This document shows positions 7,695 to 45,930 of a stretch of 64,000 nt of DNA, one piece after another (within the stretch, counting starts at the first letter, position 1; the number at the start of each line of letters is the position of its first letter). A program made the translations under genes and the position numbers. This DNA comes from Gammaproteobacteria bacterium (GTDB lineage Bacteria > Pseudomonadota > Gammaproteobacteria > Ga0077536): positions 1-64,000 of the forward strand of contig JACQWY010000016.1 in assembly GCA_016209015.1 (NCBI GenBank), given 5' to 3'. The notes beneath the pieces are model-generated. The model saw only the letters and a list, made by a program, of their open reading frames with translations. It did no database searches and was not told where the DNA came from.

Positions 7695-9374
7695 ATGCGC
7701 TATCCGGGTGTGTTGCGGTCGATTGGAATGATGTGTCTCGTGCTCGCGCCGCTCCTCGCGACCGCGGGCGGCGTGACGGGCGATCGGCTCGCGCGCGGCA
7801 CGGACGACGGCCGAAGCTGGCTCATGTACGGCGGCAATTATCACAACTGGCGCTACAGCCCGCTGAAGGACATCACCGCGGGCAACGTGAAGAAGCTCGC
7901 GGCGGCCTGGATGTTCCAGACCGGCATCCCCGGTCAGCTCGAGGCGGCACCGATCGTCGCTGACGGGGTGCTCTATCTCACGGCCTCGTACAACCACCTC
8001 TTCGCGATGGACGCCGTCACGGGCGCACCGCTCTGGAAATACGAATATCCGCTCCCCGGCGACATCCGCATCTGCTGCGGCCCGACGAACCGCGGCGTCG
8101 CCATCGCCGGCGATCGCGTCTACATGGCGACGCTCGACGCGCATCTCGTCGCGCTCGATCGCCACACCGGCAAGGAGCTCTGGAACATCGCGATGGACGA
8201 CTACAAGGCGGGCTACAGCGCGACCGCCGCGCCGCTCGTCGTGAAGGACATGGTGATCATCGGTGTGGCGTGCGGCGAATACGGCGCGCGCGGTTTCATC
8301 GACGCCTACGACGTCGCGACGGGCACGCGCAAATGGCGGCACTGGACCGTGCCGGCGGCGGGCGAGCCCGGGGTGGAGACCTGGGCCGGGGATTCGTGGA
8401 AGACGGGCGGCGGCCCGGCGTGGGCGACGGGCGCCTACGATCCGAAAGCCGACGTCATCTACTGGGCGGTCGGCAATCCCTCGCCCGACTGGAACGGCGA
8501 CACGCGCCTCGGCGACAATCTCTACACGAACTCGATCCTCGCGCTCGACCCCGCGACCGGCAATCGCAAGTGGCATTTCCAGGCGACGCCGCACGACGTG
8601 TGGGACTACGACGGCAACACCGGCTTCTTCCTCATCGATCAGAAGCGCGACGGCAAGCCGGTCGAGACGCTCGTGCAGCCGAACCGCAACGGCTGGCTCT
8701 ACGTGCTCGACCGCGCCGACGGCCGCTTCCTCCAGGGCACGCAGTACGTCGACAAGCTGAACTGGGCGACGGGCCTCGATCCGAAGGGCCGGCCGATCTT
8801 CGATCCGAAGTACGTGCCGCAGACCGGCGGCAATGCCGACTACATCTGCCCCGGCAACGTCGGCGGCACGAACGGCGCGTTCACCGCGGCCTACAGCCCG
8901 GACACGAAGCTGCTCTACGTGCCGGTCATCGAGAGCTGCGGCAGGATGGAGAAAGGCGACGTCGCGTATTCGAAGGGCGATCCGTTCTGGGCGGGCGGCC
9001 CCGGCAAGATGCACGCCGGCACGAAGGACGCGTACGGTCACCTCTCGGCGCTCGATCCCGCGACGGGCAAGGAGAAGTGGCGCTACCGCGACGAATATCC
9101 GTTCGCCGGCGGGACGCTCGCGACCGCGGGCGGTGTCGTCTTCACCGGCAATCAGCAGGGCTATGCGCTCGCGCTCGACGCGAAGAGCGGCAAGGTGCTG
9201 TGGCGCTTCCAGACCGGTGCGGCGGTGCGCGGCCAGCCGGTGACGTATCGCATCCAGGGCCGGCAGTACGTCGCGGTCGGCAGCGGCGGCGGCGGAATCG
9301 CGATCGCGCTCGTCGGCGAGCCGCCGCTCGCGAATCCCGGCAGCGCGCTCGTGGTGTTCGCGTTGCCGGAGTGA
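7695..9374 (+). CDS. PQQ-dependent alcohol dehydrogenase, lanthanide-type signature
   Basis: Periplasmic quinoprotein of 559 aa with a signal peptide (hydrophobic segment about 8-24, ending LLATAGG) and the eight-bladed propeller repeats of the methanol/ethanol dehydrogenase family. Visible features are the adjacent cysteines C127-C128 forming the ring disulfide over PQQ, metal ligands E195 and N261, and catalytic D304 in WDYDG. D306, two residues after the catalytic aspartate, is the extra ligand typical of lanthanide-dependent enzymes (XoxF, PedH); calcium enzymes have a small residue there. AGGAG lies 8 bp before ATG 7695. No cytochrome c or PQQ-synthesis gene is adjacent. A SoxYZ-like quinoprotein carrier is encoded at 40083. 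The alcohol substrate is unknown. Confidence 0.9.
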   Translation: MRYPGVLRSIGMMCLVLAPLLATAGGVTGDRLARGTDDGRSWLMYGGNYHNWRYSPLKDITAGNVKKLAAAWMFQTGIPGQLEAAPIVADGVLYLTASYNHLFAMDAVTGAPLWKYEYPLPGDIRICCGPTNRGVAIAGDRVYMATLDAHLVALDRHTGKELWNIAMDDYKAGYSATAAPLVVKDMVIIGVACGEYGARGFIDAYDVATGTRKWRHWTVPAAGEPGVETWAGDSWKTGGGPAWATGAYDPKADVIYWAVGNPSPDWNGDTRLGDNLYTNSILALDPATGNRKWHFQATPHDVWDYDGNTGFFLIDQKRDGKPVETLVQPNRNGWLYVLDRADGRFLQGTQYVDKLNWATGLDPKGRPIFDPKYVPQTGGNADYICPGNVGGTNGAFTAAYSPDTKLLYVPVIESCGRMEKGDVAYSKGDPFWAGGPGKMHAGTKDAYGHLSALDPATGKEKWRYRDEYPFAGGTLATAGGVVFTGNQQGYALALDAKSGKVLWRFQTGAAVRGQPVTYRIQGRQYVAVGSGGGGIAIALVGEPPLANPGSALVVFALPE

Positions 9375-28682: not shown

Positions 28683-29315
28683 TCACGGGATCCCCACGAC
28701 CTTGTGCATCTGCACGCTCATCCGCCAGCGCGGATGGGTGCGGCAGTATTCGACGACGCGCGCGGTATTGCGCTCGCGGTCGACGCCATCCATCGGCTGC
28801 AGGAAGAAGTGATCGAACGCGAGCCCCGAGAAGGATTCGGGATCGACGCCCGCCTGCGGATGGACGAGCTTCAACTCCTGCCCCGTGCGCTGCACGAGCG
28901 CTGCGCTGCCTTTCGGGCTGACGCAGATCCAGTCGATGCCGGCGGGGGCCGCACACGTGCCGTTCGTCTCGACGGCGATCTCGAAGCCCGCGGCGTGCAA
29001 GGCCGTGACGAGAGCTTCGTCGACCTGCAGCAAGGGCTCGCCGCCGGTCAGGACGACGTAGCGATGCGCCTCGCCCGCCCGCCACTGCGCGGAAATCGCC
29101 GCGGCGAGTGCCGCCGCATCCGCATAACGTCCGCCGTGCTCGCCGTCCGTGCCGACGAAATCCGTATCGCAGAACGTGCATGCCGCGGCCGCGCGATCGC
29201 GTTCGAGACCGCTCCACAGATTGCAGCCCGCGAAGCGGCAGAACACCGCCGCGCGCCCGGCCTGCGCGCCCTCGCCCTGCAGGGTGTGGAAGATCTCCTT
29301 GACCGCGTAGCTCAT
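28683..29315 (-). CDS. queE: 7-carboxy-7-deazaguanine synthase (radical SAM)
   Basis: Protein of 210 aa matching QueE: EIFHTLQGEGAQAGR, FCRFAGCNLW and the iron-sulfur/SAM cysteines ending in CTFCDTDF, then VLTGGEPLLQ and ETNGT. QueE converts 6-carboxy-tetrahydropterin to 7-carboxy-7-deazaguanine in preQ0/queuosine synthesis. The insertion between the first and last cysteines is typical of the gammaproteobacterial type. Its ATG overlaps the stop of the QueD-like gene by 4 bp, so the two steps are coupled. queC and queF are not in the window. Confidence 0.93.
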   Translation of the reverse strand: MSYAVKEIFHTLQGEGAQAGRAAVFCRFAGCNLWSGLERDRAAAACTFCDTDFVGTDGEHGGRYADAAALAAAISAQWRAGEAHRYVVLTGGEPLLQVDEALVTALHAAGFEIAVETNGTCAAPAGIDWICVSPKGSAALVQRTGQELKLVHPQAGVDPESFSGLAFDHFFLQPMDGVDRERNTARVVEYCRTHPRWRMSVQMHKVVGIP

Positions 29316-30364
29316 GGCATGAGGAGGGGCACGTCGTCGCCCCAGTCGAGGCGTGCGCCGCACCCCGGCGTCGCGTGGAGGACGAGGGCCGCGGTATGCG
29401 GCAGGCGCTGCGCGACCTCGCCGCGGATCCACGCGAGCACGCTGCCCGCGTCGCCGTCCGCGATGCCGGCGTGGGCCGCGAGGTCGACGTGATCGAGCTG
29501 CCTGTAGATCGGCTTGAACGCCGCTTTCACGTCGCCGTAGTCGAGTGTCCAGCCGAGCGCTGCGTCGAGCGGCACGGCGAGCTCGAGGCGGAGCAGATAG
29601 CTGTGGCCGTGCAGGCGGCTCGCGCGATGCGTCCCCGGCGCCTGCTTCAGACGTACCGCGCTCTCGAAGGACTGATCGATCCAGATGCGGTGCGCGCGAC
29701 CGTCGTAATGACAGCCGGCGGTCCGCGTCTCGTGGACGGTGACGCGCTCCAGGGCCGGCAACGCCGCGTGCAGCTCCTGCCACAGGTACACGGCGAGCAT
29801 TTCGCTCGTCGGATTCTCGAGCCCGGGCAGTTCGTTGAGGCACGCGCCGTCGAGCCGCGCGGCGAGCGGGGCCCAGGCCGTGGCGATGCGGCCGTGAGCG
29901 GCGGCGACGGGATCGCCGGTCCGGATCACGATCTCGAAACCGTGGCCGTGCATGCGGCCGCACTTGTGCGTGGCCGGCACTTTCGGCAGGCGGTGCGCGG
30001 CCTCGAAGCGGAAGCGGCACCATTGCGCGAGCGTGCCGCGCCCCGTGCAGATCGCGCCGTGCGACGGCGTCGACTGCAGCAGCACCTCGCTGCGGTCCGG
30101 GAGCTGCCCCGCGATCCAGGTCGCGAGCGCCGCGTCGTCGGGGAGGTCCAGGCGACGATTGAGATCCGTGTAATCGAGCGGCGCGACGGCGGCGGCGAGG
30201 GCGGCTTCGAGCGCGCCGAGCTCGCCGCCGGGAAAGCGCACTTCGGCGCGCGGCGGGATCGCGGCGGCCTGCACGCTGAAGCCGTGACCGTGCCGACCGA
30301 TGCCGGGCAGCGTACGTGCCGCTTCGAAACGCGCGGCGGCGAGGTGATGCAGACGTGAGCTCAT
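29312..30364 (-). CDS. Triple QueD/PTPS-like fusion protein
   Basis: Protein of 350 aa made of three tandem 6-pyruvoyl-tetrahydropterin-synthase-like modules; normal QueD is ~120 aa. Module 2 (about 117-235) is complete: first zinc ligand H124, catalytic C135 in KCGRMHGHGF, H139/H141, and NELPGLENPTSE. Module 1 has R17 in place of the first His and no cysteine, keeping H25-G-H27. Module 3 has V237 for the first His and A248 for the cysteine, keeping H252-G-H254. Only the middle unit should make 6-carboxy-tetrahydropterin; the others may be structural or bind substrate. It overlaps queE and the nitroreductase gene by 4 bp on either side. Confidence 0.85.
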   Translation of the reverse strand: MSSRLHHLAAARFEAARTLPGIGRHGHGFSVQAAAIPPRAEVRFPGGELGALEAALAAAVAPLDYTDLNRRLDLPDDAALATWIAGQLPDRSEVLLQSTPSHGAICTGRGTLAQWCRFRFEAAHRLPKVPATHKCGRMHGHGFEIVIRTGDPVAAAHGRIATAWAPLAARLDGACLNELPGLENPTSEMLAVYLWQELHAALPALERVTVHETRTAGCHYDGRAHRIWIDQSFESAVRLKQAPGTHRASRLHGHSYLLRLELAVPLDAALGWTLDYGDVKAAFKPIYRQLDHVDLAAHAGIADGDAGSVLAWIRGEVAQRLPHTAALVLHATPGCGARLDWGDDVPLLMP

Positions 30365-30885
30365 GAATTCTCGGCGGGTCTCAGGACCAGGATGGGAATG
30401 CGGCGCGGGCCGGCGCGCTCGCGGTAACGCGCGAAGTCGCGATACAGCGCGACCGCGCGCTGCCAGCGCCACGCATACTCCGCGTCGTCCGTCACTTCGC
30501 GCGCGACGTACTCGGCGCTCGCGCCGCTGGCGGCGATCCGGCAGCGCGGATTATGCCGCAGATTGAAGTACCAGGCAGGATACCGGCGCCGTCCCCAGTT
30601 CGAGGCGATGAGCCAGAGCTCGGCACCGTCCGGGATCGCGAGCGTCGGCACGCTGCGCGGCTCGCCCGAACGTGCGCCGGTCGTCGTCAGCATGACGACC
30701 GGCAGACCGGTGACGAGCCCGGCGACGCTGGTGCGGCCGCCCGAGAGGCGGAACGCGGCGCGATCGAACCAGTGCATCGTGCGCGCGAGCACGGCCGCAC
30801 CGGGACGCGAGGCCCACAGCCAGTCGAGCAGGCGGCGGACCTGCCGCGGTCCTCTCGTGAGTCTCACCGGTGGCGTCTGCGACAT
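30361..30885 (-). CDS. Deazaflavin-dependent nitroreductase-family protein
   Basis: Protein of 174 aa with the split-beta-barrel DDN/DUF385 pattern: VVMLTTTGARSGEPRSVPTLAI, WLIASNWGRRRYPAWYFNLRHNP and RRIPILVLRP. Characterised relatives use the deazaflavin cofactor F420 (actinobacterial Ddn), though some bind FMN or heme instead. It is the first gene of an overlapping trio with the QueD-like and QueE genes and is divergent from the F420-type Mtd gene, which supports F420 use. The physiological substrate is unknown. Confidence 0.82.
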   Translation of the reverse strand: MSQTPPVRLTRGPRQVRRLLDWLWASRPGAAVLARTMHWFDRAAFRLSGGRTSVAGLVTGLPVVMLTTTGARSGEPRSVPTLAIPDGAELWLIASNWGRRRYPAWYFNLRHNPRCRIAASGASAEYVAREVTDDAEYAWRWQRAVALYRDFARYRERAGPRRIPILVLRPAENS

Positions 30886-31033: not shown

Positions 31034-31900
31034 ATGGCACAGAACACCTTCAAGCTCGGCGTGCTGAAGCTCGGCTGCATCGGCGCCGCGCCCCTGCTCG
31101 ACCTCCTGCTCGACGAGCGCGCGGATCGCGAGGACCTCGAAATCCGCGCGTTCACCTGCGGCGCGAAGCTCGACGCCGCATCGTGCGAGCCGCCGACCGC
31201 CGATGCCATCGCCTACAAGCCCGATCTCCTGCTGCTCGTCAGCCCGAACGCCGCGCTCGCCGGCCCGGCCGCGTCGCGCACGGCCATCGCCGCGGCGGGC
31301 ATTCCGCTGATCACGATTTCCGACGGTCCCTCGAAGAAGGCGTTCTTCAAGAAGAACGAGGAAGGCAAGCAGGTGAAGAACGTGCCGGCCGGTCAGGGTT
31401 TCTTCGTCCTGCCGGCAGACTCGATGATCGGCGCGCGGCGCGAGTTTCTCGACCCGAGCGAGATGGCGCTGTTCAATTCCGACGTCATCAAGGTGCTCGC
31501 CGCGACCGGCGTGCTGCGCCTCATCCAGCAGGAGCTCGACCGCGTGATCGGCGAGCTGAAGGCCGGCGCGACGCCGACGTATCCGACGATCACCGTCAAC
31601 CCCGACAAGGCGCTCGCCGCGGGCGCGTTCGGCAATCCCTATGCGGCGGCGAAAGCCTATGCCGCGCTCGCGCTCGCCGAGGCGACCTCGGGGGTGACGG
31701 CGGACGGCTGCTTCAAGGAGCAGGATCCCGCGCGCTACATCACGATGGTCGCCGCCGGCCACGAGATGATGCGCATGGCGGCGAGACTCGCCGACGAGGC
31801 GCGCGAGCTCGAGAAGGCCGGTGACACGCTCGTGCGCACGCCCCACGCCGCGAGCGGCGAACCCCGCCGCAAGACGGCGCTCGCCGCGAAACCGGAGTGA
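31034..31900 (+). CDS. mtd: F420-dependent methylene-tetrahydromethanopterin dehydrogenase (Mtd)
   Basis: Protein of 288 aa closely resembling archaeal Mtd over its full length: start KLGVLKLGCIG, DLLLDERADRED, the signature MIGARREFLDPSEMALFNSD, NPYAAAKAYAA and the C-terminal HEMMRMAA...ADEARELEKAGDT...RTPH. Mtd reversibly oxidises methylene-H4MPT to methenyl-H4MPT with coenzyme F420 and is classically an enzyme of methanogens and Archaeoglobus. Bacteria with H4MPT usually use NAD(P)-dependent MtdA/MtdB instead. GC content and codon use match the neighbours, so any transfer is old. GGAG precedes ATG 31034. It is followed after 46 bp by a HIT-family gene. No other H4MPT or F420 biosynthesis gene is in the window. 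Confidence 0.9.
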   Translation: MAQNTFKLGVLKLGCIGAAPLLDLLLDERADREDLEIRAFTCGAKLDAASCEPPTADAIAYKPDLLLLVSPNAALAGPAASRTAIAAAGIPLITISDGPSKKAFFKKNEEGKQVKNVPAGQGFFVLPADSMIGARREFLDPSEMALFNSDVIKVLAATGVLRLIQQELDRVIGELKAGATPTYPTITVNPDKALAAGAFGNPYAAAKAYAALALAEATSGVTADGCFKEQDPARYITMVAAGHEMMRMAARLADEARELEKAGDTLVRTPHAASGEPRRKTALAAKPE

Positions 31901-33296: not shown

Positions 33297-34031
33297 ATGA
33301 CCTATTGCCTCGGCATCGCCCTCGAAAACGGCCTCGTGTTCTGCTCGGACTCGCGCACGAACGCGGGCGTCGATCAGGTCAGCACCTACAGCAAGATGCA
33401 TCTGTTCAAGACGGCGGAGGATCGTCAGTTCGTGCTGCTGAGCTCGGGCAATCTCGCGACGACCCAGGCCGTCGTCATGAAGCTGAAGCAGGATCTGCAG
33501 ATCGAAGCGCCGTTCAACCTCAATACGGCACGCACGGTCGACGAGGCCGCGGAATACATCGGCGAGGTGAGCCTGAAGCGGCAGGCGAAGCACACGGAGG
33601 CCGGCCAGTCGAGCTTCGATCCCAAGGTCACGTTCATCTTCGGCGGCCAGATCCGCGGCGCGGAGCCGATGCTCTTCCTCGTCTATCCCGAAGGCAACTA
33701 CATCACGACCTCGGTCGACACGCCTTATCTGCAGATCGGCGAGAGCAAATACGGCAAGCCCATACTCGACCGCGTGATCAAGCCGGGCACGAGCATCGAG
33801 GACGCCGCGAAATGCGCGATCGTCTCCATGGACTCGACGATCCGCTCGAACCTCTCGGTCGGCCCGCCGATCGAGTTGCGTGTCTACGAGAAGGATACGT
33901 TCGAGCCGGGCCGCTACCTGCGCTTCCTGGAGGACGATCCCTATCTGCGCCAGGTCTCGCGGACCTGGAACCAGAAGCTCATCGAAGCTTATCGCACGCT
34001 GCCGGAAATAAGCTGGGGCGATCAGGGCTGA
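33297..34031 (+). CDS. Anbu-type proteasome-like peptidase
   Basis: Protein of 244 aa of the Anbu (ancestral beta subunit, COG3484) group, related to HslV and proteasome beta subunits. It starts MTYCLGIALENGLVFCSDSR; removal of Met would expose Thr2, the expected nucleophile. Other family features are SKMHLF, LLSSGNLATTQ and VDTPYLQIGESKYGKPILDR. Anbu genes are typically linked to alpha-E, circularly permuted ATP-grasp and transglutaminase genes; here the alpha-E/ATP-grasp pair lies convergently downstream across a repeat-rich gap of 777 bp. It probably assembles into open-ring or helical oligomers. Substrate unknown. Confidence 0.9.
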   Translation: MTYCLGIALENGLVFCSDSRTNAGVDQVSTYSKMHLFKTAEDRQFVLLSSGNLATTQAVVMKLKQDLQIEAPFNLNTARTVDEAAEYIGEVSLKRQAKHTEAGQSSFDPKVTFIFGGQIRGAEPMLFLVYPEGNYITTSVDTPYLQIGESKYGKPILDRVIKPGTSIEDAAKCAIVSMDSTIRSNLSVGPPIELRVYEKDTFEPGRYLRFLEDDPYLRQVSRTWNQKLIEAYRTLPEISWGDQG

Positions 34032-34236
34032 ATTTCCTGCCGGCGTCGCGTGACCGGTTGGCAGGTATACGGCGGTGAACGGGCCGCATGGATGCTGGGG
34101 GGCCCCAACCCGCCCCCTGTCCGTGCATCGTCCGAATGGCGCCGACCGTCCGTCGAATAGCTGAGCTCGCGAGAGGATGGAATCACTGTCATCGGCCCGA
34201 CGTTCGCTCCGCGATTATCCGAACGCATCAGCGCCC

Positions 34237-34702
34237 GCCGTGCCGACGCAGGAGGCGCATCGATCGCGTCTTCCGTCACTCCACGAATGGAGCGGGTCGG
34301 CAATGCCGGTCGCTCGCCGAACGTTCCTGCGATCGTCATCGCGTCGAAGGAGGAAGGTGAGTCAGGTGAACCGCGATCGATGCGCCTCCTGCGTCGGCAC
34401 ATCCTATAAGGTCTCCACGGATGGAGCGGGTCGGCAATGCCGGACGCTCGCCGAACGTTCCTGCGATCGTCATCGCGTCGAGGGAGGAAGGTGAGTCAGG
34501 TGAACCGCGATCGATGCGCCTCCTTCGTCGGCACATCCTATAAGGTCGGTGCTTGGGCCGCAGCAAGCGTAGGTTGGCTCCTGGCCGCAAGCCGACTCAT
34601 CACCGTCCCGCGGATATGTCGCAATCCTCTCCAAAAACGGACTTTCGAACGTGAGGATCGCCGGGCCGCGATCGACGCGCCTCCTGCATCGGCACATCCC
34701 AT
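34237..34702. repeat. Tandem 134-bp repeats and related motifs
   Basis: A 134-bp unit starting CCACGAATGGAGCGGGTCGG occurs at 34281 and again at 34415, nearly identical, each ending in GATGCGCCTCCT...CATCCTATAAGG. An inverted fragment precedes them at 34237-34266 and a degenerate third fragment lies at 34667-34702. Related sequence occurs at 9987-10021. The whole gap 34032-34808 between anbu and the alpha-E gene contains no gene that I recognise. Confidence 0.85.
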
Positions 34703-42930: not shown

Positions 42931-44040
42931 TCAGGTCACGTATTCCACGACCTCGAGGCCGAAGCCCGAGATCGCGTGATATTTGCGCGGGTTGCTCATC
43001 ACCCGCATCTTGCGTACGCCGAGATCCGCGAGGATCTGCGCGCCGAGCCCGATCTGCCGCCAGTCCATCGGCCGTTGCGCGCGCGGCGGGCGCGGCGCGT
43101 TCGCATCGGTCTCCGCGTAGCGGAAGATCTGGCGGACGAGCTCGTCGTTCTCCACCTGGTTCGAGAGCATCACGATCACCCCCTCGCCGGCGTCCGCGAG
43201 CCGCTTCAGCACGTCGCGCAGCGGCCAGCCCGCGTCCTTGCGCACGTTCGCCGTGAGATCGGCGAGCGGATTGCAGATGTGCACGCGGACCAGCGTCGGC
43301 CGCTCCGGCGAGATGTGGCCCTTCACCATCGCGAGATGGAGGTCGCCGTGGATCGCGTCGCGGTAGCCGTAGAGCCGGAACTCGCCGAACTCGGTCGGCA
43401 GGACCGATTCCGCGGCCCGCTCGATCGTCTTCTCGTTCTCGATCCGGAATCGGATCAGATCCGCGATCGTGCCCATCTTCAGGCCGTGCTCGGCGGCGAT
43501 GACCTCGAGCTCGGGACGGCGTGCCATCGTGCCGTCGTCGTTCAGGATCTCGACGATCACGCCTGCGGGCTCGAGGCCGGCGAGACGCGCGAGATCGCAG
43601 GACGCCTCGGTGTGCCCCGCGCGCGTCAGCACGCCGCCGACCTGGGCGACGAGCGGGAAGATGTGGCCGGGCTGCGTGAGATCCGAAGCACGCGCATTCG
43701 GCGCGATGGCGGCCCGCACGGTACGCGCGCGGTCCGCGGCCGAGATGCCGGTCGTCACGCCTTCGGCCGCTTCGATCGAGACCGTGAAGTTCGTGCGATG
43801 CGTGTAGTGCGTGTCGCGCACCATCAACGGCAGGTTGAGCTGGCGGCAGCGCGCTTCCGTCATCGGCATGCAGATCAGACCGCGGCCGTACTTCGCCATG
43901 AAATTGATGTGGGCCGCCGTGCAATGGCTCGCGGCGATGACGAAATCGCCCTCGTTCTCGCGATCCTCGTCGTCGACGATGATCACCATCTTGCCGTCGC
44001 GGATGTCGGCGATGATTTCCTGGGTCGAATTGAAGGCCAT
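42931..44040 (-). CDS. ribB: 3,4-dihydroxybutanone-phosphate synthase with degenerate GCH2 domain
   Basis: Protein of 369 aa. The N-terminal half is an intact Rib[49 protein letters not shown]. The C-terminal half is homologous to GTP cyclohydrolase II but lacks the zinc cysteines: the expected HSECLTGDVFGSLRCDCG-like block reads [10 protein letters not shown]. So only the RibB reaction (ribulose-5-phosphate to DHBP plus formate) is expected, and a separate RibA should exist elsewhere. This RibB plus pseudo-RibA form is common in gammaproteobacteria. It sits between ribE and ribH. Confidence 0.93.
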
Positions 44041-44109
44041 AGTCCTGGTCTGTCCGTCAGTGTCGTGGTGATTGCGATCCGGCGGCGGCGCCGCCGTCGC
44101 GCCGGCCTC

Positions 44110-44766
44110 TCAGTGGCCGGCGAAACCCGCGCTACGCAGCAGCTCGAGGTTCAGATTACCGGCGGGCGCCCCGCCGTCGGCGGTCAGCAGCCGTTCGAGA
44201 TAGCGCGCGAGGAGATCGATTTCGAGGTTCACCGGCGCGCCCGCCTTGAGAGCGCCGAGCGTGGTGGCCTTCAGGGTGTGGGGGATGATCAGCAGTTCGA
44301 ATTCCGCGCCGGCGACCGCGTTCACGGTGAGGCTCACCCCCTCCACGCAGATCGAGCCCTTCGGCGCGATGTAGCGCGCGAGCCCGGCGGGCGCGCGCAA
44401 CCGGAACTGCACGCTGTTGTCGTGCTCGCGACGCCACAGCACTTCGCCCACACCGTCGACGTGTCCGCTCACGAGATGACCGCCGAGGCGATCGGAGAGC
44501 CGCAGCGCCTTCTCGAGATTGATCGGCGATCCCGCGGCGAGACGGCCGAGCGTCGTGCGTGCGAGCGTCTCGGGCGAAACGTCGACTTCGAATACGTCGC
44601 CGCCGAATTTGACGACGGTAAGGCAGGCCCCCGAGCAGGCGATGCTGTCGCCGAGCACGACGTCGTCGAGCCCGAGCGTGCCGGCCCCGACCGTCATGCG
44701 CACTGCGTCGCCCTGTTGCGCGAGGCTCGCAATCGTGCCCACTGCCTGGATGATGCCGGTAAACAT
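44110..44766 (-). CDS. ribE: Riboflavin synthase alpha chain
   Basis: Protein of 218 aa made of two homologous lumazine-binding barrels: MFTGIIQAVGTI at the start, IACSGACLTVV, GGHLVSGHVDGVG, then CVEGVSLTVN and FELLIIPHTLKATTLG in the second. It dismutates two lumazine molecules to riboflavin plus the pyrimidine precursor. ATG 44766. Same strand as and close to ribD (33 bp) and ribB (69 bp). No FMN riboswitch is evident in the short spacers. Confidence 0.95.
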   Translation of the reverse strand: MFTGIIQAVGTIASLAQQGDAVRMTVGAGTLGLDDVVLGDSIACSGACLTVVKFGGDVFEVDVSPETLARTTLGRLAAGSPINLEKALRLSDRLGGHLVSGHVDGVGEVLWRREHDNSVQFRLRAPAGLARYIAPKGSICVEGVSLTVNAVAGAEFELLIIPHTLKATTLGALKAGAPVNLEIDLLARYLERLLTADGGAPAGNLNLELLRSAGFAGH

Positions 44767-44799
44767 AAGCCGAAACTATCGAGTATGCGTGCGCATGCG

Positions 44800-45930
44800 T
44801 CAAGTCGGGGCGGACGGCCGCGGTCGGGCCACGATGCGCAGATCCGCGCCGATGCGATCGCAGCTCAGGATCTCCAGCGCAGGTGCCCGCGCAAGCGCGC
44901 CGGGATCCGCGAATTCGAACGCGCTTTGCGCCGTGTGACCGAGGAGTTTCGGGGCGAGGTAGAGCACGTATTCGTCGACGAGCCCGGCCGCGACGAATGC
45001 GCCGGCGAGCCGTGGACCGGCTTCGACGAGCACGTCGTTCACTTCGCGCGCGGCGAGGCGCGCGAGTGCTGCGGACAGCGCGACGCCGTCGGGGCCGCGC
45101 GCGATCACCTCGACCTCGGCGCCCGCCGCTTCGAGCGCCCGGATCGCATCGAGCTCGGCGACGCCCGAGAAGACGAGCGTGCGCCCGGGCCGGGTCAGGA
45201 TCTTCGCCTGCGGACTCATTGCGAGGCGGGTGTCGAGCACCGCGCGCAGTTGCCGGCGCGGGCCGAGATCGAAACGCGGATCGCGGACGTCGAGGCCCGG
45301 ATCGTCGGCACGCACGGTGCCGATGCCGGTCAACACGCAGTCGCTCGCCGCGCGCAGGCGCTGGACGTCGGCACGGGCTTCCGCGCCCGTCACCCATTGC
45401 GAGGCGCCGGAAGCGAGCGCGACCTTGCCGTCGAGGCTCATGCCGAGCTTGAGCGTCACGAACGGCCGGCCGCGTTCCATGCGGTTGAAGAAGCCGCGGT
45501 TGAGTGCGCGCGATTCCGCGGCGAGCACGCCGCCCGTCACGGCGATCCCGGCGGCTTCGAGCCGCGCCCGGCCGCCGCCCGCGACGCGCGGATTGCTGTC
45601 GCCCGCCGCGAACACGACACGCGCGACACCGGCCGCGACGAGCGCCTCGGCGCACGGCGGCGTGCGGCCGTGATGGCTGCAGGGTTCGAGCGTGACGTAG
45701 ACGGTCGCGCCGCGCGCGCGTTCGCCGGCCGCGGCGAGCGCGCCGACCTCGGCATGCGGACCGCCGGCGTGATGATGGAAGCCGGCGCCGACGACTTCGT
45801 CACCCTGGACGATCACGCAGCCGACGCGCGGATTCGGATGGGTCGAATAATAGCCGCGCCGCGCGAGCTCGAGCGCATGCGCCATGTGGCCGTGATCGGC
45901 GGCCGTCACCTCGGGCCCGGAATGCGGCAC
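44800..45930 (-). CDS. ribD: Bifunctional riboflavin deaminase/reductase RibD
   Basis: Protein of 376 aa. The N-terminal deaminase has HAEVGAL and the zinc motif EPCSHHGRTPPC. The C-terminal reductase starts near PFVTLKLGMSLDGKVAL and contains NDVLVEAGPRLAGAF. It performs the second and third steps of the pyrimidine branch of riboflavin synthesis. The GTG at 45930 gives a 15-residue leader before HMAHALELARRG; an internal ATG at that methionine is an alternative start. It begins 4 bp after nrdR. Confidence 0.94.
   Translation of the reverse strand: MPHSGPEVTAADHGHMAHALELARRGYYSTHPNPRVGCVIVQGDEVVGAGFHHHAGGPHAEVGALAAAGERARGATVYVTLEPCSHHGRTPPCAEALVAAGVARVVFAAGDSNPRVAGGGRARLEAAGIAVTGGVLAAESRALNRGFFNRMERGRPFVTLKLGMSLDGKVALASGASQWVTGAEARADVQRLRAASDCVLTGIGTVRADDPGLDVRDPRFDLGPRRQLRAVLDTRLAMSPQAKILTRPGRTLVFSGVAELDAIRALEAAGAEVEVIARGPDGVALSAALARLAAREVNDVLVEAGPRLAGAFVAAGLVDEYVLYLAPKLLGHTAQSAFEFADPGALARAPALEILSCDRIGADLRIVARPRPSAPT

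Follow-up and report, generated by a model that had tools for sequence, protein, structure and literature searches.

We found that the window (the whole stretch of 64,000 nucleotides analyzed here) contains mtd, a gene predicted to encode a full-length, archaeal-type F420-dependent methylene-tetrahydromethanopterin (H4MPT) dehydrogenase (Mtd; Table 1). The open reading frame starts with ATG and is open and complete. Its product covered positions 1-274 of the 274 in the Pfam model PF01993 (MTD; 336 bits, cut-off 25) and scored 329 bits, against a cut-off of 297, with the NCBIfam equivalog PRK00994, "F420-dependent methylenetetrahydromethanopterin dehydrogenase". PF01993 was the sole match at E <= 0.001; the N-terminal domain of MtdA and MtdB (PF09176) was absent. 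The best sequence match in the PDB was Mtd from M. kandleri (1qv9; E 1.9e-63). A fold search with an AlphaFold model of the protein (mean pLDDT 81.8, pTM 0.80) had the same structure as its top PDB match (E 4.7e-21, TM 0.81/0.82), followed by a runner-up at E 4.5e-4 and TM 0.31. The motif MIGARREFLDPSEMALFNSD was present. We also looked at 65 alignment columns that were at least 95% identical in 41 archaeal Mtds outside a Thorarchaeota/Lokiarchaeota group: the window protein had the same residue at 62 of them, and at 58 the residue was kept across all 19 bacterial Mtds. The initial annotation had described a full-length Mtd with this motif, and the Pfam, NCBIfam, PDB and fold results bear it out. 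The protein falls with Mtd by the family and equivalog cut-offs, the fold of the predicted model, the invariant residues and, at the level of genes, the F420 and H4MPT genes of its host. We consider the identification confirmed by sequence and predicted structure.

Table 1. Locations of mtd and of other features in the window and in related genomes
Feature	Location	Strand	Evidence
mtd, F420-dependent methylene-H4MPT dehydrogenase, 288 aa	window 31034..31900	+	Pfam, NCBIfam equivalog, PDB match, predicted fold, residue conservation
Deazaflavin-dependent nitroreductase / F420H2-dependent quinone reductase family	window 30361..30885	-	PF04075, 93 bits; TIGR00026, 97.5 bits, over cut-off
Second PQQ-dehydrogenase-like ORF	window 7695-9374	+	by eye
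Radical-SAM (QueE-like) gene	window 28683-29330	-	
Protein with QueD stretches	window 29312-30472	-	
ORFs sharing near-identical peptides	window 34022-34590		
ORFs resembling riboflavin biosynthesis genes	window 42931-45930	-	by eye
FrhB-family protein, N-terminal ferredoxin-like part	L142:9358-10848 (G016)		
FrhB-family protein, N-terminal ferredoxin-like part	L140:9300-11060 (G000)		
FrhB-family protein, N-terminal ferredoxin-like part	L145:9366-10787 (G001)		
mtdB remnant	L127:3169-3645 (G029)		
mtdB, near full length	L152:5132-6033 (G021)		

The nitroreductase-family gene is divergent from mtd, and its product is a possible user of F420H2. We chose the start given in Table 1; a longer frame, to 31209, overlaps mtd antisense. 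The functional tie between the two genes is weak: among the mtd loci compared, the nitroreductase gene adjoins mtd elsewhere only in G025. Nitroreductase-like matches at L130 and L035 were antisense shadows of mtd. The bacterial synteny around mtd is seen again in further assemblies from the order, and therefore mtd is not on a stray archaeal contig.

Other features of the window were noted in passing. The radical-SAM gene adjoins a gene whose product contains 6-pyruvoyl-tetrahydropterin synthase/QueD stretches, at least two of them and, judged by eye, perhaps three. The near-identical peptides, encoded between a proteasome-like gene and an Alpha-E gene, point to direct DNA repeats. The frames that resemble riboflavin biosynthesis genes would belong to a pathway that has a precursor in common with that of F420. 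Neighborhood open reading frames came from a simple gene caller, and some are in the wrong frame.

The genome that contains the window (G000; 5.7 Mb in 65 contigs, 100% complete, 0.11% contamination) has gene sets for both cofactors. One cluster encodes the F420 proteins CofE, CofD, CofC and a fused CofGH, all but CofD noted as over their model cut-offs; a genome search found one CofD and one Mch. A second cluster encodes Fae, Mch, an MtdB-type protein (PF09176), an RFAP synthase family protein, FhcB, FhcA and Ftr, with an FhcC-like frame seen by eye after Ftr. Fae, Mch and FhcA were over cut-off, the RFAP synthase family protein was over a subfamily cut-off and under a narrower equivalog model, and FhcB was under its equivalog cut-off. 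A PQQ dehydrogenase of the methanol/ethanol family is encoded ~4 kb beyond this cluster; by its sequence features, it may be the lanthanide-type enzyme XoxF. The window itself has a second PQQ-dehydrogenase-like frame (Table 1). The initial annotation had proposed that the host makes or imports F420 and runs part of an H4MPT pathway, and the presence of cofC, cofD, cofE and cofGH together with fae, mch and ftr agrees with this. Its further suggestion, that formaldehyde from a PQQ dehydrogenase is perhaps oxidized, has support at the gene level, where PQQ dehydrogenase, Fae and Fhc are all found.

MtdA and MtdB catalyze the same H4MPT step as Mtd. In G000, mtd lies outside both clusters, and the genome has a second MtdA/B-like gene in addition to the MtdB-type gene. 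Mtd is thus an added dehydrogenase there.

We compared 58 genomes: 36 from the order of the window (G000-G035), an uncultured gammaproteobacterial order with a single family, and 22 outgroups. Mtd was over cut-off in 22 of the 58, all of them among the 36 order members; in three genomes (G011, G024 and G035) it was split or was found only as fragments at the ends of contigs. Mtd was above cut-off in 1 of 398 genomes in a sample of the phylum (G000 itself, with two more weak matches) and in 3 of 369 in a sample of the class (all of the window's order, with one more weak match); none was above cut-off outside the order in either. The restriction of bacterial Mtd to this order holds for what was searched: the 58 genomes, the two samples from the order's own phylum and class, and the best 80 loci of a scan of genome contigs. 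Among 14 control genomes, Mtd was found in two, both methanogens, and there was no match in a plasmid collection. Some database records carried unexpected titles. Of those that hold loci L028, L029 and L099, two are titled Klebsiella pneumoniae and have contigs of this order, and one, titled Nitrosotalea, has an Mtd that groups with those of ANME and methanogens. These records are probably mislabeled or misbinned.

Within the order, the presence of Mtd follows that of Mch and not F420 alone. Mch was above cut-off in 22 of the 36 members and CofH in 32. Both Mtd and Mch were found in 20, Mtd only in two, Mch only in two, and neither in 12 (Fisher p 5.6e-6 for the 36 members, a value that ignores relatedness). 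The members with Mtd and no Mch were G026 (57% complete) and G034 (81%); those with Mch and no detected Mtd were G020 (92%) and G022 (82%). CofH was not above cut-off in G006, where it was in two contig-end pieces, or in G019, G026 and G030 (71, 57 and 87% complete). Two nearly complete genomes, G015 (99%, genus g9) and G009 (94%, genus g10), kept CofH; neither Mtd nor PF09176 was found in them, nor was any Mch above cut-off. In contrast, the congeners with which they were compared, G008 and G016, had both Mch and Mtd. There was no Mtd in the outgroups G037 and G046, which have Mch and no CofH above cut-off, or in G043, G045 and G052, which have CofH and no Mch. The evidence that H4MPT is the substrate is comparative, and this leaves some room for a protein that has drifted to another substrate, such as methylene-tetrahydrofolate, or to another deazaflavin reaction. 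We think such drift very improbable, given that Mtd tracks Mch and that 62 of the 65 near-invariant archaeal positions are kept.

The bacterial mtd appears to be of archaeal origin. In a tree of 66 Mtds, the 19 bacterial sequences formed one clade (support 97/98) inside a clade with six sequences from Thorarchaeota and Lokiarchaeota (support 100/99), apart from those of Archaeoglobi, methanogens and ANME, TACK and other Asgard archaea. The window protein is thus placed among archaeal Mtds and not in a clade with a different function. With long rows removed, the support was 100/97 for the bacterial clade and 100/99 for bacteria plus three Thorarchaeota sequences. A Thorarchaeota-only clade was not rejected (p-AU 0.43), and therefore the bacterial clade is either nested in or sister to the Thorarchaeota Mtds. 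Among the best 80 loci, the highest-ranking named matches from beyond the order were four Thorarchaeota loci at 59-64% identity. The other members of the Mtd family that we found all come from archaea, which makes acquisition by the bacterial order simpler than transfer the other way, and the tree is best read as an old transfer of mtd from Asgard-type archaea.

This gene has been kept under purifying selection. In nine chosen pairs of mtd, dN/dS was 0.04-0.21 (Nei-Gojobori, with some pairs near saturation). The composition is host-like: mtd in the window is 69.4% GC (91% at third positions), the window as a whole is 68.6%, and two Thorarchaeota mtd loci are 46-48%. The single clade across the order, the host-like composition and the purifying selection rule out a recent transfer, in agreement with the initial annotation, which had taken any transfer to be not recent. 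Because the relatives are mostly metagenome assemblies and the lineage is an unexpected one, we also considered that mtd comes from contamination or misassembly, or is a decaying, functionless transferred gene. That is hardly credible for a gene that is under such selection, unlike the two Thorarchaeota loci in composition, and found in 22 of 36 genomes as one clade with recurring bacterial synteny. Contamination itself is ruled out by the occurrence, the clade, the synteny and the composition.

Some members of the order appear to have lost mtdB. PF09176 matches were found in 24 of the 58 genomes, 21 of them order members. In G000, G008, G013 and G018, mtdB is between the genes for RFAP synthase and Mch. 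The same interval was contiguous and had no mtdB match in G006, G011 and G016, all of which have Mtd, and also in G022. Two sister genomes with Mtd have a damaged mtdB (Table 1): in G029 two internal segments are missing, including the nucleotide-binding glycine stretch, and in G021 there is one frame shift. Both are draft assemblies, and the damage may be decay or an error of assembly or sequencing. The contigs of G031 and G033 stop right behind mch, and these two do not count either way. G006 and G011 keep one PF09176 gene elsewhere in the genome that could do the step. Neither G016 (98% complete) nor G029 (90%) had a PF09176 match that passed the search threshold. By these searches, Mtd is therefore the only recognized methylene-H4MPT dehydrogenase in G016, and probably also in G029. 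Many genomes with Mtd, including G000, keep MtdB, and thus the order as a whole does not depend on Mtd for this step.

Members of this order have many candidate users of F420H2 and few recognized enzymes that would make it. Matches to luciferase-like proteins of the F420 type were very numerous in nearly all members (G001 and G026 are exceptions; matches were scored up to about 30 per genome), with few or none in outgroups. Fno passed its cut-off in three F420-producing outgroups and in none of the 36 members. Fgd was above cut-off in one member, G008; an Fgd-like protein of G000, 34% identical to it, fell below cut-off. An FrhB/FdhB-family protein was found in 29 of the 36 members and in none of the 22 outgroups. 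The one in G016 matched F420 enzymes with solved structures, among them the F420-reducing hydrogenase beta subunit, and was under the named NCBIfam cut-offs; in G001 the gene adjoins F420 biosynthesis genes. Since members that lack Mtd have the FrhB-like protein as well as members that possess it, we regard the protein not as an Mtd-specific partner but as a candidate for draining F420H2 or for reducing F420. Given the Fgd-like and FrhB-like proteins, we do not claim that Mtd is the only F420 reducer in G000.

It is possible that the bulk of the oxidation falls to MtdB, and that Mtd draws off a small share of methylene-H4MPT mainly to supply F420H2 to the many F420-type reductases. The presence of MtdB beside Mtd in G000, the scarcity of Fno and Fgd and the abundance of luciferase-like proteins would all fit, and we take this possibility seriously while tending to doubt it. 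In several genomes with Mtd, mtdB is absent or damaged and the rest of the pathway is kept, so Mtd must carry flux there. In addition, F420-producing members without Mtd exist, so there must be other F420 reducers; G000 has its Fgd-like and FrhB-like proteins.

Based on the gene content we infer the activity of Mtd, its oxidative direction and the fate of F420H2, the direction because Fae and Fhc accompany Mtd. Archaeal Mtd is bidirectional, according to the accessible part of a review (PMC8498797), and Mtd here could instead work reductively with F420H2, taking formate-level carbon to methylene-H4MPT for assimilation or other one-carbon use. The company of Fae and Fhc, a bacterial oxidative module, and of a PQQ dehydrogenase makes this unlikely.

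Our preferred reading is that mtd was acquired long ago from Asgard-type archaea by an ancestor within a single uncultured order of Gammaproteobacteria. A PQQ alcohol dehydrogenase would produce formaldehyde, which Fae would join to H4MPT to give methylene-H4MPT. Mtd would convert this to methenyl-H4MPT with transfer of a hydride to F420; MtdB would be an alternative for the same step with NAD(P). Mch and Fhc would carry the carbon on to formate. The F420H2 would feed the many F420-type enzymes of the order and perhaps, by way of the FrhB-like iron-sulfur protein, other electron carriers. In genomes that also have MtdB, NAD(P) and F420 would each receive part of the electrons; some members may have replaced MtdB with Mtd. 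We think it likely that this is a working Mtd from Asgard-type archaea that passes electrons from bacterial formaldehyde oxidation to F420. Somewhat less surely, we favor the broader idea of F420-based methylotrophy in the order, beside or instead of NAD(P), in which loss of MtdB has made F420 obligatory in some members and alcohol oxidation is perhaps lanthanide-dependent.

These results suggest that a proteobacterial order oxidizes one-carbon compounds partly through F420. In the portion of the 2021 F420 review available to us (PMC8498797), Mtd is tabulated under Archaea, the role of F420 in bacteria outside Actinobacteria has had no experimental study, and why Proteobacteria make F420 is a named open question. 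For one order, this locus offers a testable answer: electrons from one-carbon oxidation. If true, F420-based methylotrophy would give F420 a central catabolic role in a proteobacterium. We found no earlier report of a bacterial Mtd in the open-access literature, as far as its accessible text goes, and a mention elsewhere is possible. The available parts of PMC12542740 and PMC11264602 contain no such report (nor, in the latter, the word F420), and the methylotroph order of PMC12542740 is a different group, being alphaproteobacterial. Bacterial pathways that use H4MPT are as a rule linked to NAD(P), and this locus is an exception. It also exemplifies the movement of a central metabolic gene between Asgard-type archaea and bacteria. 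A metagenomic match to mtd need not come from a methanogen or a methane-oxidizing archaeon.

Mtd differs from the other enzymes to which it can be compared. MtdA and MtdB belong to an unrelated family (PF09176 versus PF01993) and use NAD(P) as acceptor; both kinds of enzyme co-occur in G000. Bacterial Fno and Fgd, like Mtd, would supply F420H2, with NADPH or glucose-6-phosphate as their substrates. Of the known reducers, F420 producers among the Betaproteobacteria have Fno alone (available part of PMC8498797), the enzyme that was below cut-off or absent throughout the window's order. Compared to archaeal Mtd (EC 1.5.98.1; M. kandleri 1qv9), the window protein has the same full-length family match, the same predicted fold and nearly all of the invariant residues. 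The setting of archaeal Mtd is methanogenesis, methane oxidation or an archaeal one-carbon pathway, whereas here Mtd is found in a proteobacterium alongside Fae and Fhc, in a putative oxidative formaldehyde pathway. Comparative genomics thus gives good support to a known enzyme, old and constrained, in a new pathway context.
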